Assembly (NCBI GenBank): GCA_903905455.1 | Contig: CAIVGN010000046.1 | Location: forward strand, 1 to 64,000 | DNA from: an uncultured Archangium sp. | GTDB taxonomy: Bacteria > Myxococcota > Myxococcia > Myxococcales > Myxococcaceae | Reading direction: 5' to 3' | Length of the DNA stretch: 64,000 nucleotides | Notes under the pieces: generated by a model | Database searches by the model: none | What the model saw: only the letters and a program-made list of their open reading frames with translations | What the model was told of the DNA's origin: nothing | Made by a program: the position numbers and the translations under genes | Shown: positions 56,448 to 61,099 of the stretch, in pieces | Position numbering within the stretch: position 1 is the stretch's first letter | Layout of the letters: each line of letters begins with the position of its first letter

Positions 56448-57341
56448 ATGAACATGCCTGAACTCTGGGTCACCGTATTGATCGGCGTCGCCGCCGTGCT
56501 CTTCGCGGGCGCGGCCGGCATGGTCGGCCTGGGTGTCTCCAACGTCGTCTCTCCGTTCCTGGTCGAGGTGAAGGAAGAGTCTGCCGGTGGTGTCGCCGGT
56601 GCCGGCTCGGTCGTGGTGCGCAAGCTCGGCGTGATGAACCGCCGCTTCATGTGGCCCGGCTACGAAGACAAGATGCGCCGCAGCCTGATCAAGGCCGGCG
56701 AGCCGAAGACCTACAAGCCAGAAGACATCATGGCCTTGCAGGAGATCGGCTTCATCGTCGGGCTCATGTTCGGCGTGGTGCTCGCCAGCGCCATCGACTT
56801 CAACCTCGCGTGGTCGCTGGTGGTGGCGCTGATCGGCCTCTTCTACCCGCTCATCTGGGTCAACGACCAGGTCAACAAGCGGCACCTGCAGATCAGCCGC
56901 GCGCTGCCCTTCAACCTCGACCTGCTGACGCTCTCCGTCGAGGCCGGCCTCGACTTCACCGCCGCCCTCGCGAAGGTCGTCGAGAAGGGCAAGGCCGGGC
57001 CGCTGCGCGAAGAGCTCGCCCTGGTGCTCAAGCAGCTGAAGATGGGCAAGACGCGCGAGGAGGCCCTCAAGGGAATGATCGCCCGCGTCGATCTCCCGGC
57101 CCTCAGCCAGTTCGTCACCGCGCTCATCCAGGCCGACAAGATGGGCACCTCGCTGGGCAAGGTGCTGCGCATTCAGTCGACGCAGCTGCGCATCGAGCGC
57201 ACCCAGCGGGCCGAGAAGCTCGCCAACGAGGCGCCGGTGAAGATGCTCTTCCCGCTCATCGCCTGCATCTTCCCGACGGTCTTCATGGTGCTCTTCGGGC
57301 CGATCGTCTTCGCCTTCATGTTCGGCAACATTGCCGGCTGA
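56448..57341 (+). CDS. tadC: Tad pilus inner-membrane platform protein TadC (type II secretion F-domain)
   Basis: A 297-residue partner of TadB. An N-terminal helix precedes a cytosolic segment with Y-K-P-E-D-I-M-A-L-Q-E-I-G. The characteristic TadC motif is R-A-L-P-F-N-L-D-L-L-T-L-S-V-E-A-G-L-D. C-terminal helices end in F-A-F-M-F-G-N-I-A. It forms the platform heteromer with TadB. The FHA gene begins 7 bp later, so the transcript probably continues into it. Confidence 0.93.
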   Translation: MNMPELWVTVLIGVAAVLFAGAAGMVGLGVSNVVSPFLVEVKEESAGGVAGAGSVVVRKLGVMNRRFMWPGYEDKMRRSLIKAGEPKTYKPEDIMALQEIGFIVGLMFGVVLASAIDFNLAWSLVVALIGLFYPLIWVNDQVNKRHLQISRALPFNLDLLTLSVEAGLDFTAALAKVVEKGKAGPLREELALVLKQLKMGKTREEALKGMIARVDLPALSQFVTALIQADKMGTSLGKVLRIQSTQLRIERTQRAEKLANEAPVKMLFPLIACIFPTVFMVLFGPIVFAFMFGNIAG

Positions 57342-57348
57342 CCGTCAC

Positions 57349-59115
57349 ATGCCTCCTCCTCCTTCTGGAAAACAGCCACCGCCGCGCCGTCCGACCGGGG
57401 TCGCCCCGGCGGCTCCCCGTGCCCCCACGGGAGGTGCGCCGGCCGTACGCCGGCCCACGGCCACCGCGCGCGCCGTCAAGCAGACCCCGAAGCTCATCGC
57501 CCAGGCCGGGCCTGCCTCGGGCCAGGAGTTCGTGCTCGACGGTGATGAGCTGGTGATCGGCCGTGCTGCCGACAACCCGGTCTCCATCCCCGACACCTCC
57601 GTCAGCCGGAAGCACGCGCTGGTTCGCAAGACGTCCGACGGCTGGGCGGTCAGCGACCTGGGGTCGGGCAACGGCACGATGCTCAACGGCGAGGCCATCG
57701 CCGACGAGACGACGCTCGCCGAGGGCGACGTGATCACCCTGGGCGACAGCGAGCTGCGCTACTCCGCGGGTGGGGCGCCGGCCGCGGCCGTCGAGCCCCC
57801 CACGGCCGAGTTTCCGACGGGTGCTCGCCGTCCCCCGGTGCGCACGGCGCGCAGCGGCGGCGGGGCCATCGAGCGCAGCACCGGTCGAGGGCGCCCGGTG
57901 CGCACCTCGCGCATGGCGGAAGACCCGGAGGAGGCCAAGAAGAAGCGCCGGAAGGCCTTCATCGTCGTCGGCGGTTCGCTGGTGGTGATCATGGCCCTGG
58001 GCGTGGGCTGGAAGGCCATCGACAACAAGCGGCAGATCGCGGTGCGGGCCGAGCGACTCAAGGGCCAGGAGCACCAGGCCGAGATGGCCAACCTCTTCAA
58101 GGAGGCCAAGTCGATGGTGCGCCTCGGCAAGTGGGTCGAGGCCAAGGCCAAGCTCGAGGAGATGCAGGCCGAAGACGTCGACTACGAGACCCGCCAGGTC
58201 GAGAACTACATCAAGATCGCCGAGACCGAGATCCCCAACCAGTCGCTGCTCGCCGAGGCGAACGTGGCGATCGCCAAGGGCGAACTGGGCAAGGCCGGCG
58301 CGGCCCTCTCGAAGGTGAAGACCACCACCCAGGAAGCCGCCCTGCGCTCGGCAAAGGACGCGCTCGACGCCAAGACCACCGAGAAGCTGGCTGAAGCGCG
58401 TGGGCTGGCGGCATCGGCGAGCGACCTGGCCAAGATGGAGCAACTCAAGGCCCTGTGTGAGGACATCCTCCTGGTGCGCGTGGACGACCGAGAGGCCTCG
58501 GAGCTCAAGAAGGCGGCGGAGACCGCGATCTACCGCATCAAGAACCCCTCGGTGGCGCCGCCGCCTCCCGACACCCCGTGGCTCGAGGTGCAACTGCGCT
58601 ACAAGAACGGCGACTCGTCGGGCTCGCTCTCGCTGGCCCAGGCGTGCGCCAACAAGCACGCGCAGTGCCGCGCGCTCGAAGAGAACATCAAGGAGTTCGA
58701 GGCCAAGTCGAAGCGCCTCGAGGAACTCAACGAGAATGAGCTCATCGCGGCCTACGAGCTCGACAAGAAGATCGCCGGCGGCTCGTCGAGCGAGCTGTCC
58801 CGGCCGCTGCGCACCCAGCTCGTCTCGAAGCTGTACGTGAAGGCCAGCCAGGCCAAGACCACCGGCAACTGGAGCCGGGCCATCGAGTTCGCCCGGCGCG
58901 TGTTGCAGGCCGATTCCGGCCACGTGGGCGCGCAGGCGCTGGTGAACGAGGCGCGCAACCAGGCGCGCGATGTCTACCTTCGCGGGTACCAGCTCAAGGA
59001 GTCGAGCCCCGACGAGGCCATTCGGCTCTTCAAAGACGTGATGAACATGACGCCGCCCGACGACGACAACCACCAGAAGGCCAAGGCGCGCGTGGCGGAG
59101 CTGCAGAAGCAGTGA
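57349..59115 (+). CDS. FHA-domain membrane protein with C-terminal TPR-like region
   Basis: A 588-residue protein from ATG 57349. A Pro-rich N-terminus leads to an FHA domain at about 48-138. It has the phosphothreonine-binding residues: Gly71-Arg72 (V-I-G-R-A), S-V-S-R-K-H at 84-89 and G-S-G-N-G-T at 105-110. A single membrane helix lies at about 202-222 (F-I-V-V-G-G-S-L-V-V-I-M-A-L). The C-terminal 360 residues are helical repeat (TPR-like) and probably periplasmic. It may link Ser/Thr kinase signalling to pilus assembly. The next gene, xseA, overlaps by 4 bp. Confidence 0.9.
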   Translation: MPPPPSGKQPPPRRPTGVAPAAPRAPTGGAPAVRRPTATARAVKQTPKLIAQAGPASGQEFVLDGDELVIGRAADNPVSIPDTSVSRKHALVRKTSDGWAVSDLGSGNGTMLNGEAIADETTLAEGDVITLGDSELRYSAGGAPAAAVEPPTAEFPTGARRPPVRTARSGGGAIERSTGRGRPVRTSRMAEDPEEAKKKRRKAFIVVGGSLVVIMALGVGWKAIDNKRQIAVRAERLKGQEHQAEMANLFKEAKSMVRLGKWVEAKAKLEEMQAEDVDYETRQVENYIKIAETEIPNQSLLAEANVAIAKGELGKAGAALSKVKTTTQEAALRSAKDALDAKTTEKLAEARGLAASASDLAKMEQLKALCEDILLVRVDDREASELKKAAETAIYRIKNPSVAPPPPDTPWLEVQLRYKNGDSSGSLSLAQACANKHAQCRALEENIKEFEAKSKRLEELNENELIAAYELDKKIAGGSSSELSRPLRTQLVSKLYVKASQAKTTGNWSRAIEFARRVLQADSGHVGAQALVNEARNQARDVYLRGYQLKESSPDEAIRLFKDVMNMTPPDDDNHQKAKARVAELQKQ

Positions 59116-60740
59116 GCCGGTCGAAGCAGGGTGATCTCTTCGGTGGCGCGGCACCGGCTCCGAAGGCCGACGTCGCGGCGCCGAAGTCCGTGGTGGCGCC
59201 CGTGGCCCTGCCGCCCGTCGAGCCCAGCCGGACGCCCGCCTGGCGCAAGCCGGTCGAGCCGAAGGCCGAGGCCACGGTGCTCACGGTCTCGGAGCTCACC
59301 CGGCAGGTCAAGGGTGCCCTCGAGCCGCAGTTCACCCGGGTGCTGGTGCGCGGCGAGGTGGCCAACTTCCGCGGCGCCAACGCCCGCGGGCACCTCTACT
59401 TCGCGCTCAAGGACGAGGGCGCGTCGATCGACGTGAAGCTCTGGGCCGGCTCGGCGCAGCGCCTGAAGTTCCAGTTGAAGGAAGGCCTGTCGGTGATCAT
59501 CGAGGGCAACCTCGACGTGTACGCGCCGCAGGGGCGCTACAGCCTGATCGTCAACCGCATCGATCCCGAGGGCGTCGGCGCGCAGGCGCTGGCCTTCGAG
59601 CAGCTCAAGCAGAAGCTCGTGGCCGAGGGCCTCATCGGTGACCAGCGCACCCGGCCGCGCCGCCCGCTGCCCTTTCTTCCCCGGCGCATCGGGGTGGTGA
59701 CCAGCGTCACCGGCGCGGCGCTGCGCGACTTCGTCAAGGTGCTCCACCGGCGCCACCCCCGGCTCTCGGTGCTGGTCGCCGACGCGCGGGTGCAGGGCGA
59801 CGGGGCGGTGGGGGACGTGTGCCGCGCGCTGCGCTGGCTGGGCCGAACTGACGTCGACGTGATCGTCGTCACGCGGGGCGGCGGGAGCGCCGAGGATCTC
59901 TGGACCTTCAACGAAGAGCAGGTGGTGCGCGCGGTGTGGGCCTGCCCGGTGCCCGTGGTCTCCGCGGTGGGCCACGAGATCGACACCACCCTGTGCGATC
60001 TCGTCGCCGACGTGCGGGCGCCGACGCCCAGCGCGGCGGCCGAGCTCCTCGCGCCGATGCTGGTGGACCTCGAGGCACAGCTGGCCACCATCAAGTCCCA
60101 ACTCCACCGGGCGATGGAGAAGACGCTGCTGCAGGAGCGCTCGGAGCTGCGGGCGATGCGCGGCGCGCTGGGCGACCCACGGCGGGCGCTCACCACCCAG
60201 CGCCTCTTCATCTCGGGCGCCGCGGAGCGCCTCACCACCATCTTGCGCAAGCGGGCGCGTACGGAGGGCGTCGCGCTGCGGGACCTCTCGCAGCGGCTGC
60301 AGCGCGCGCGGCCCCAGGCGCAGCTCCAGGCCCGGAAGGCCGCGCTGGTCGGCCTGCGGTCGTCGCTCCTCGCGCTGGGGCAGCGGCGCCTGCGCGGCGA
60401 ACGCGAGCGGTTCTTCCAGCTCTCGCGCGAGCTCGAGCGCCACTCGCCCCGGCCGCTGCTCCAGCAGGGCCAGCAGCTCCTCGCCCGGCAAGACGAGCGC
60501 CTGGGCGCGGCGCTCAAGGCGCGGCTGCAGCGCGAACGGGAGGCGCTGCGGGGCCTCGCGGCCCAGCTCGACGCCTACAGCCCCTTGAAGGTGCTCAGCC
60601 GCGGCTACGCGCTGGTCCAGGGACCGGACGGGCAGGTCGTGCGGCGCGCGGCCCAGGTGGCGGTGGGCGACCAGCTGCGGCTGCGCCTGGGCGGCGGCGA
60701 CGAGGTCAGCGCGACGGTGACGCAGGTGAAGGGGCGCTGA
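59112..60740 (+). CDS. xseA: Exodeoxyribonuclease VII large subunit XseA
   Basis: A 542-residue nuclease subunit that degrades single-stranded DNA with XseB and acts in DNA repair. The GTG start overlaps the FHA stop. Relative to E. coli it has an N-terminal extension of about 55 residues that begins with Q-G-D-L-F (residues 6-10), a sliding-clamp-type pentapeptide, then a Pro/Ala-rich linker. The OB-fold (V-L-V-R-G-E-V-A-N-F) and the catalytic core (D-V-I-V-V-T-R-G-G-G-S-A-E-D-L-W-T-F-N-E) are typical, and a coiled-coil C-terminus follows. xseB starts 20 bp later. Confidence 0.95.
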   Translation: MSRSKQGDLFGGAAPAPKADVAAPKSVVAPVALPPVEPSRTPAWRKPVEPKAEATVLTVSELTRQVKGALEPQFTRVLVRGEVANFRGANARGHLYFALKDEGASIDVKLWAGSAQRLKFQLKEGLSVIIEGNLDVYAPQGRYSLIVNRIDPEGVGAQALAFEQLKQKLVAEGLIGDQRTRPRRPLPFLPRRIGVVTSVTGAALRDFVKVLHRRHPRLSVLVADARVQGDGAVGDVCRALRWLGRTDVDVIVVTRGGGSAEDLWTFNEEQVVRAVWACPVPVVSAVGHEIDTTLCDLVADVRAPTPSAAAELLAPMLVDLEAQLATIKSQLHRAMEKTLLQERSELRAMRGALGDPRRALTTQRLFISGAAERLTTILRKRARTEGVALRDLSQRLQRARPQAQLQARKAALVGLRSSLLALGQRRLRGERERFFQLSRELERHSPRPLLQQGQQLLARQDERLGAALKARLQREREALRGLAAQLDAYSPLKVLSRGYALVQGPDGQVVRRAAQVAVGDQLRLRLGGGDEVSATVTQVKGR

Positions 60741-60760
60741 GTCCGTGTTACGCAGCGCGC

Positions 60761-61099
60761 GTGGCGAAGGAAAAGAACGCAGCGCGTGGGCAGTACGGCG
60801 AGGTGGTCTCGCGGCTCCAGCAGATCGTCGGTTCTCTCGAGGCCGGAGAGCTGACGCTCGAGGACTCGCTGGATCGCTTCCAGGAGGGCATCACCCTCGT
60901 GAAGCAGGGCGAGGCGATCCTTGCTGATGCCGAGAAGCGCATCGAGCAGCTCTTGTCGGAGGACGGGCGCACCGCGCCGCTCAAGCTGGGCGACGCGCCG
61001 GCTGAGCCCGTGAAGGCCGCGCCCGCCGTGACGGGGCGCAAGGCGGCCCCCGCGCCCGTTCCCGCACCGTCGGCTGAAGACGACGACGTGCCGTTCTGA
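60761..61099 (+). CDS. xseB: Exodeoxyribonuclease VII small subunit XseB with SSB-like acidic C-terminus
   Basis: A 112-residue protein from GTG 60761. The conserved XseB domain (about 1-70) has R-L-Q-Q-I-V-G-S-L-E-A-G-E-L-T-L-E-D-S-L and F-Q-E-G-I-T-L-V-K-Q-G, the usual small-subunit signature. The family is normally about 80 residues. Here an Ala/Pro-rich linker (K-A-A-P-A-P-V-P-A-P) ends in E-D-D-D-V-P-F, closely resembling the C-terminal peptide D-D-D-I-P-F of single-stranded DNA-binding protein. It sits with xseA, ispA, dxs and tlyA, a common genomic arrangement. Confidence 0.92.
   Translation: MAKEKNAARGQYGEVVSRLQQIVGSLEAGELTLEDSLDRFQEGITLVKQGEAILADAEKRIEQLLSEDGRTAPLKLGDAPAEPVKAAPAVTGRKAAPAPVPAPSAEDDDVPF

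Follow-up and report, generated by a model that had tools for sequence, protein, structure and literature searches.

Exonuclease VII (Exo VII) is widespread, and its recruitment to substrates is poorly known. The window analysed here, a stretch of 64,000 nucleotides from an uncultured Archangium sp., contains genes for both subunits, each of which carries a short terminal peptide resembling a docking peptide of the replication machinery. The original prediction was that XseA reaches the sliding clamp and that XseB reaches the partners of single-stranded DNA-binding protein (SSB). Comparative sequence analysis partly supports this docking proposal.

The exonuclease VII locus

The features considered here are the following.
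59112..60740, + strand: xseA, exonuclease VII large subunit, 542 aa, GTG start (TIGR00237, PF02601/PF13742)
59127..59141, + strand: Q-G-D-L-F, clamp-binding-motif-like, XseA residues 6-10 (sequence, family conservation, low pLDDT)
59142..59279, + strand: predicted disordered Pro/Ala-rich leader from the motif to the OB fold, XseA residues 11-56 (low pLDDT, no secondary structure)
60761..61099, + strand: xseB, exonuclease VII small subunit, 112 aa, GTG start (TIGR01280, PF02609)
60986..61075, + strand: Pro/Ala-rich linker of XseB (A 29% and P 29% in the linkers of its family)
61076..61096, + strand: E-D-D-D-V-P-F tail of XseB, resembling the SSB C-terminus (pattern scan, identity 0.90, synonymous codons)

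The two genes clearly encode exonuclease VII. Both the Exonuc_VII_L domain and the OB fold are present in XseA according to Pfam and NCBIfam, the Pfam start of the OB fold being residue 57, and R255-GGG, GHE-x-D (287-291) and other residues are invariant over 49 sequences. XseB scores 59.4 bits against TIGR01280 (cut-off 35), and the window copy of XseA is the only one in the genome. The same two subunits and domains make up Exo VII of E. coli (PDB 8TXR), and ispA and dxs are adjacent in both organisms; here, a polyprenyl synthase (ispA-like) and dxs, as read from their translations, lie 3' of xseB. Upstream, an ORF at 57331-59115, whose translation looks like an FHA-domain protein, shares a 4-base overlap (GTGA) with the GTG start of xseA, and this stop/start overlap suggests translational coupling of the two. 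In translation, the N-terminus of XseA reads MSRSKQGDLFGG and the C-terminus of XseB reads ...PAPSAEDDDVPF-stop, with DDDVPF at 61079-61096.

A clamp-motif-like peptide in the XseA leader

The opening residues of XseA (MSRSKQGDLF) had been proposed to fit the clamp-binding consensus, and this holds well beyond the window. The motif was searched for in frame over at most 160 codons before the OB fold, in one genome per genus; this region may hold untranslated codons, by which the signal would be diluted, not created. In the family of the window (f1, probably Myxococcaceae), Q..LF was found in all 23 of 23 genera, against a mean of 0.08 in shuffled leaders. Outside f1, Q..LF was present in 15/39 genera (shuffle mean 0.25) and the shorter [DG]LF in 26/39 (shuffle mean 0.56). 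Among the 35 f1 XseA proteins with Q.DLF, the Q, D, L and F do not vary while the flanking residues drift, and the codons of the motif itself differ between genes (GAT/GAC, CTC/TTG/CTG, TTC/TTT); the motif is kept at the amino-acid level, not at the DNA level.

The AlphaFold2 model of XseA has a mean pLDDT of 85, but of only about 43-51 for residues 1-50, and shows no structure as far as residue 58. The low pLDDT and the lack of structure place the motif, in this model, at the tip of a flexible leader, so that XseA presents, in a segment predicted to be disordered and accessible, a conserved peptide of the form Q-x-x-[LM]-[FL]. The Q-x-x-L-F peptide is shared with the clamp-binding proteins Pol III alpha, Hda, Pol II, Pol IV and RecB (PMC11139829, PMC13254535), and in Hda it likewise lies in a disordered N-terminus.

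One residue departs from the preferred grammar. Known clamp-binding motifs favour Leu at position 2, whereas the window XseA has Gly, which is not the preferred aliphatic residue, and f1 sequences have Gly (26/35) or Ala (5/35), the latter counted as aliphatic in the quoted consensus. According to a review of the E. coli clamp, Ala, Val or Gly at this position weakens binding, Ala by ~40-fold (PMC11139829), and for this reason the affinity of XseA for the clamp may be low unless avidity helps. The resident DnaE carries QSNLFG exactly at the site of E. coli 920-QADMF; with its Ser, a known ligand of the resident clamp is thus also small at position 2, and an aliphatic residue there would be preferred but not strictly required. 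The resident DnaN was compared with E. coli at 20 positions taken to form the clamp pocket: 19/20 are identical, the exception being S346P, and by this comparison the resident pocket is intact.

A genome-wide DNA search for QxDLF was rejected as evidence, although it gave 57 matches against 16 in the control, because the pattern also allowed QxDFF and many of the 30 matches that were read lay in frames of non-coding appearance. It was kept only for one match: a resident ExoIII-like endonuclease/exonuclease (L219, G000:C49:18942-18956) carries the canonical clamp-binding consensus at its C-terminus (QLDLF-stop).

The motif is not confined to one place in the protein. In one relative (L077) the XseA leader lacks it and the C-terminus reads ...GPDQGNLF-stop instead, a shift that is expected of a portable short linear motif. 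Some XseA proteins of families f3 and f5 have xDLF without the Gln, and the motif is absent from XseA in several phylum-level lineages. Beyond the phylum, 80 named loci were judged by eye, not statistically; clamp-like leader peptides were seen in Acidobacteria, Bdellovibrionales, Verrucomicrobia and others, and none in the XseA relatives of the enterics Escherichia, Citrobacter and Photorhabdus. The clamp peptide is more widely spread than the XseB tail. In another phylum, the XseA of L105 ends in GSLF, which may be a clamp-like or an SSB-like C-terminal peptide.

The SSB-like tail of XseB

The C-terminus of XseB (EDDDVPF) had likewise been read as close to the SSB peptide, and the genome bears this out. 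When the whole 8.6 Mb genome was scanned with a DNA pattern for [DE][DE][ILMV]PF-stop, two matches were obtained, XseB and SSB, and none in the reversed control. Most f1 genomes, among 80 genomes of the phylum scanned, also have such tails on XseB and SSB only. The resident SSB, encoded on another contig, ends in PPPADDIPF, nearly identical to the ...DDDVPF of XseB. In the 43 f1 xseB genes whose products end in PF, F at -1, P at -2 and D at -4 are invariant, position -3 is V in 39, I in three and T in one, and the tail codons vary synonymously (CCG/CCC/CCA/CCT, GAC/GAT). Pairwise identity is 0.90 over the last six residues and 0.25 over the preceding 18-residue linker.

In SSB, a disordered linker leads to DDDIPF, in which acidic residues precede a hydrophobic-Pro-Phe ending at the extreme C-terminus. 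XseB likewise presents such a peptide at its exact C-terminus, its linker being judged disordered from Pro/Ala composition only. The tail nevertheless differs from that of SSB in three respects. It belongs to a nuclease subunit that is not homologous to SSB: XseB matched PF02609 only, not the SSB OB fold PF00436, which in this genome matched once, on contig C191. The linkers are also unlike, so that the claim of a Pro/Ala linker similar to that of SSB was mistaken; in f1 XseB the linker is A 29% and P 29%, whereas the SSB linkers of the phylum are Gly-rich (G 41%), as is that of the resident SSB. Finally, the Ile of f1 SSB is mostly replaced by Val in f1 XseB, and SSB-tail readers may for this reason treat XseB differently. 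An origin of the tail from a fragment of the SSB gene was considered and judged unlikely, because the linker compositions differ and only the last residues match.

Could such peptides arise without any docking function? Pro/Ala-rich and acidic linkers are frequent in GC-rich genomes, and a chance resemblance in composition-biased linkers might be suspected, but the shuffle and control counts (0.08 of 23 leaders expected against 23 observed, and no tail in the genome-wide control) refute this reading, to which we give practically no credence. Alternatively, the XseB tail could be generic, serving for acidity or solubility, and the motif of the XseA leader could have a structural or translational role. 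Acidic XseB tails without PF are indeed common elsewhere. This is improbable in our view: P -2 and Asp -4 are invariant in f1, SSB is the only other match genome-wide, and the XseA motif is kept despite synonymous drift, lies in a predicted disordered leader and can shift to the other end of the protein (L077).

Within f1, the tail occurs in every genus for which a complete XseB was read, save g22, a genus of small genomes. Outside f1, it was found in f7, in two genera of f8 and in one genus each of f9 and f6; in the f6 locus L266 xseB lies apart from xseA and still keeps the tail (...GGDDIPF). Weaker forms occur in f5 (DPDIAF) and f13 (DKIPF), and the tail is absent from f2, f3 and most other families of the phylum. 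Since it is missing in f2, f3 and g22, the tail is dispensable. On the XseA tree, the tail label changes ~7 times, 6 of these changes being forced by starred branches; one change is an artefact, because the DDDTPF tail of L030 was scored as absent in this run. Either an old tail with repeated loss or several gains may account for this pattern. E. coli XseB is not known to end in an SSB-like peptide. Among the 80 named loci of other phyla, a single XseB, from an Acidobacterium (L156), ends in such a peptide (DDDDGMPF); SSB was not found in the assembly of that Acidobacterium. The comparison of SSB and XseB tails in other phyla covered the SSB tails of Pyrinomonadaceae, which read SDDDIPF and DEDEIPF. 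Three XseB endings from other phyla, ESVF, ELLF and SSLF (L107, L137, L138), were excluded from this count; together with the GSLF of L105, they mostly follow acidic stretches and may be clamp-like or SSB-like C-terminal peptides.

Several other proteins with tails of this kind were observed. In three f3 genomes (G027, G035, G039), GGDDVPF or GGEDVPF forms the C-terminus of a UvrD-like helicase (L251, L271, L272); in this family the helicase has an SSB-like tail and XseB has none. A protein with an FPNYGRSKG...YYANG.RR region, whose last 159 residues have no Pfam match, ends in DDDIPF or DDDVPF in L258, L267, L268, L269 and L277 (f5, f8 and genus g7 of f1). Two proteins that are winged-helix-like by eye end in DDLPF or DDEIPF in f9 and f8 genomes (L270, L278).

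Candidate roles of the two peptides

Lack of conservation among relatives had been named beforehand as the result that would count against the docking proposal, and both peptides are clearly conserved. Because this conservation goes far beyond chance, Exo VII is probably plugged into the replication and repair machinery. The clamp half of the proposal is supported by the intact pocket residues of DnaN, the shared grammar of DnaE and the relocation of the motif to the XseA C-terminus elsewhere, and the SSB half by the near identity of the tail to that of the resident SSB and its uniqueness in the genome. In the open-access literature searched, no report of an XseA clamp motif or an XseB SSB-like tail was found; "exonuclease VII" and "clamp-binding motif" occurred together only in work on RecBCD, and XseA does not occur in the 2024 clamp review (PMC11139829).

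Our preferred reading, to which we assign a probability of roughly 0.6, is that Exo VII uses XseA to dock on the clamp and XseB to display SSB-tail mimics in many copies. The Q-x-D-L-F peptide in the disordered N-terminus of XseA would enter the peptide pocket of DnaN and dock Exo VII at forks, at gaps or along mismatch-repair tracts. Each copy of XseB would offer its imitation of the SSB tail at the end of a flexible Pro/Ala linker. With several XseB subunits to each XseA in the holoenzyme, the enzyme would display many such tails. These could retain SSB-tail readers (e.g. RecO, PriA, RecJ, RecG) at the trimmed end, where the nuclease would strip away single-stranded DNA and, with it, the SSB platform. 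The E. coli structure contains 4 XseA and 16 XseB chains (PDB 8TXR); if the stoichiometry is the same here, one holoenzyme would carry 4 clamp peptides and 16 SSB-type tails. From the sequences, we infer the binding of the peptides, the partners and the repair step served.

What the XseB tails would bind is less certain. The genome encodes RecO, a known reader of the SSB tail, and ExoI (SbcB) was not detected in it. In E. coli mismatch repair, Exo VII is one of four redundant exonucleases (PMC8744996). In B. subtilis, SSB and XseA co-purify, and XseA forms foci at forks that require the SSB C-terminus (PMC3000357). Exo VII is thus tied there to SSB-tail traffic at forks, as is proposed here; however, the B. 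subtilis enzyme relies on the tail of SSB itself, whereas here XseB bears a copy of such a tail.

Since B. subtilis XseA is a known client of the SSB tail, the XseB mimic may act in cis, and we consider this the main rival. The tail would occupy an SSB-tail pocket of XseA and autoregulate the nuclease or compete with SSB, the role of the clamp motif being unchanged. Such a tail would resemble the acidic tips of SSB and Hfq, which bind their own cores, those of Hfq autoregulating through nucleic-acid mimicry (PMC5606850), and the Val that replaces the Ile of SSB in f1 XseB would fit a weaker, displaceable ligand. On the other side, the strong conservation of PF and of the acidic residues equally fits binding in trans, and the pocket in XseA is hypothetical. 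Overall, we regard action in cis as rather unlikely.

A more specific form of the preferred reading, clamp docking with display of SSB-tail mimics, is offered tentatively and with considerable doubt. In cells without ExoI, Exo VII might be a multivalent hub, anchored on the clamp by XseA. Its many XseB tails would substitute for SSB at the point where it removes the SSB-coated strand, and would retain SSB-tail readers or pass them on while gaps or mismatches are processed.

Conserved clamp and SSB-like peptides on its two subunits offer a direct candidate route for the recruitment of Exo VII. If the preferred reading is true, a nuclease with multiple mimics of the SSB tail would steer the SSB interaction network by unusual means, and the other tailed repair proteins of the phylum, such as the UvrD-like helicase of f3, suggest that mimicry of the SSB tail may be a wider device.
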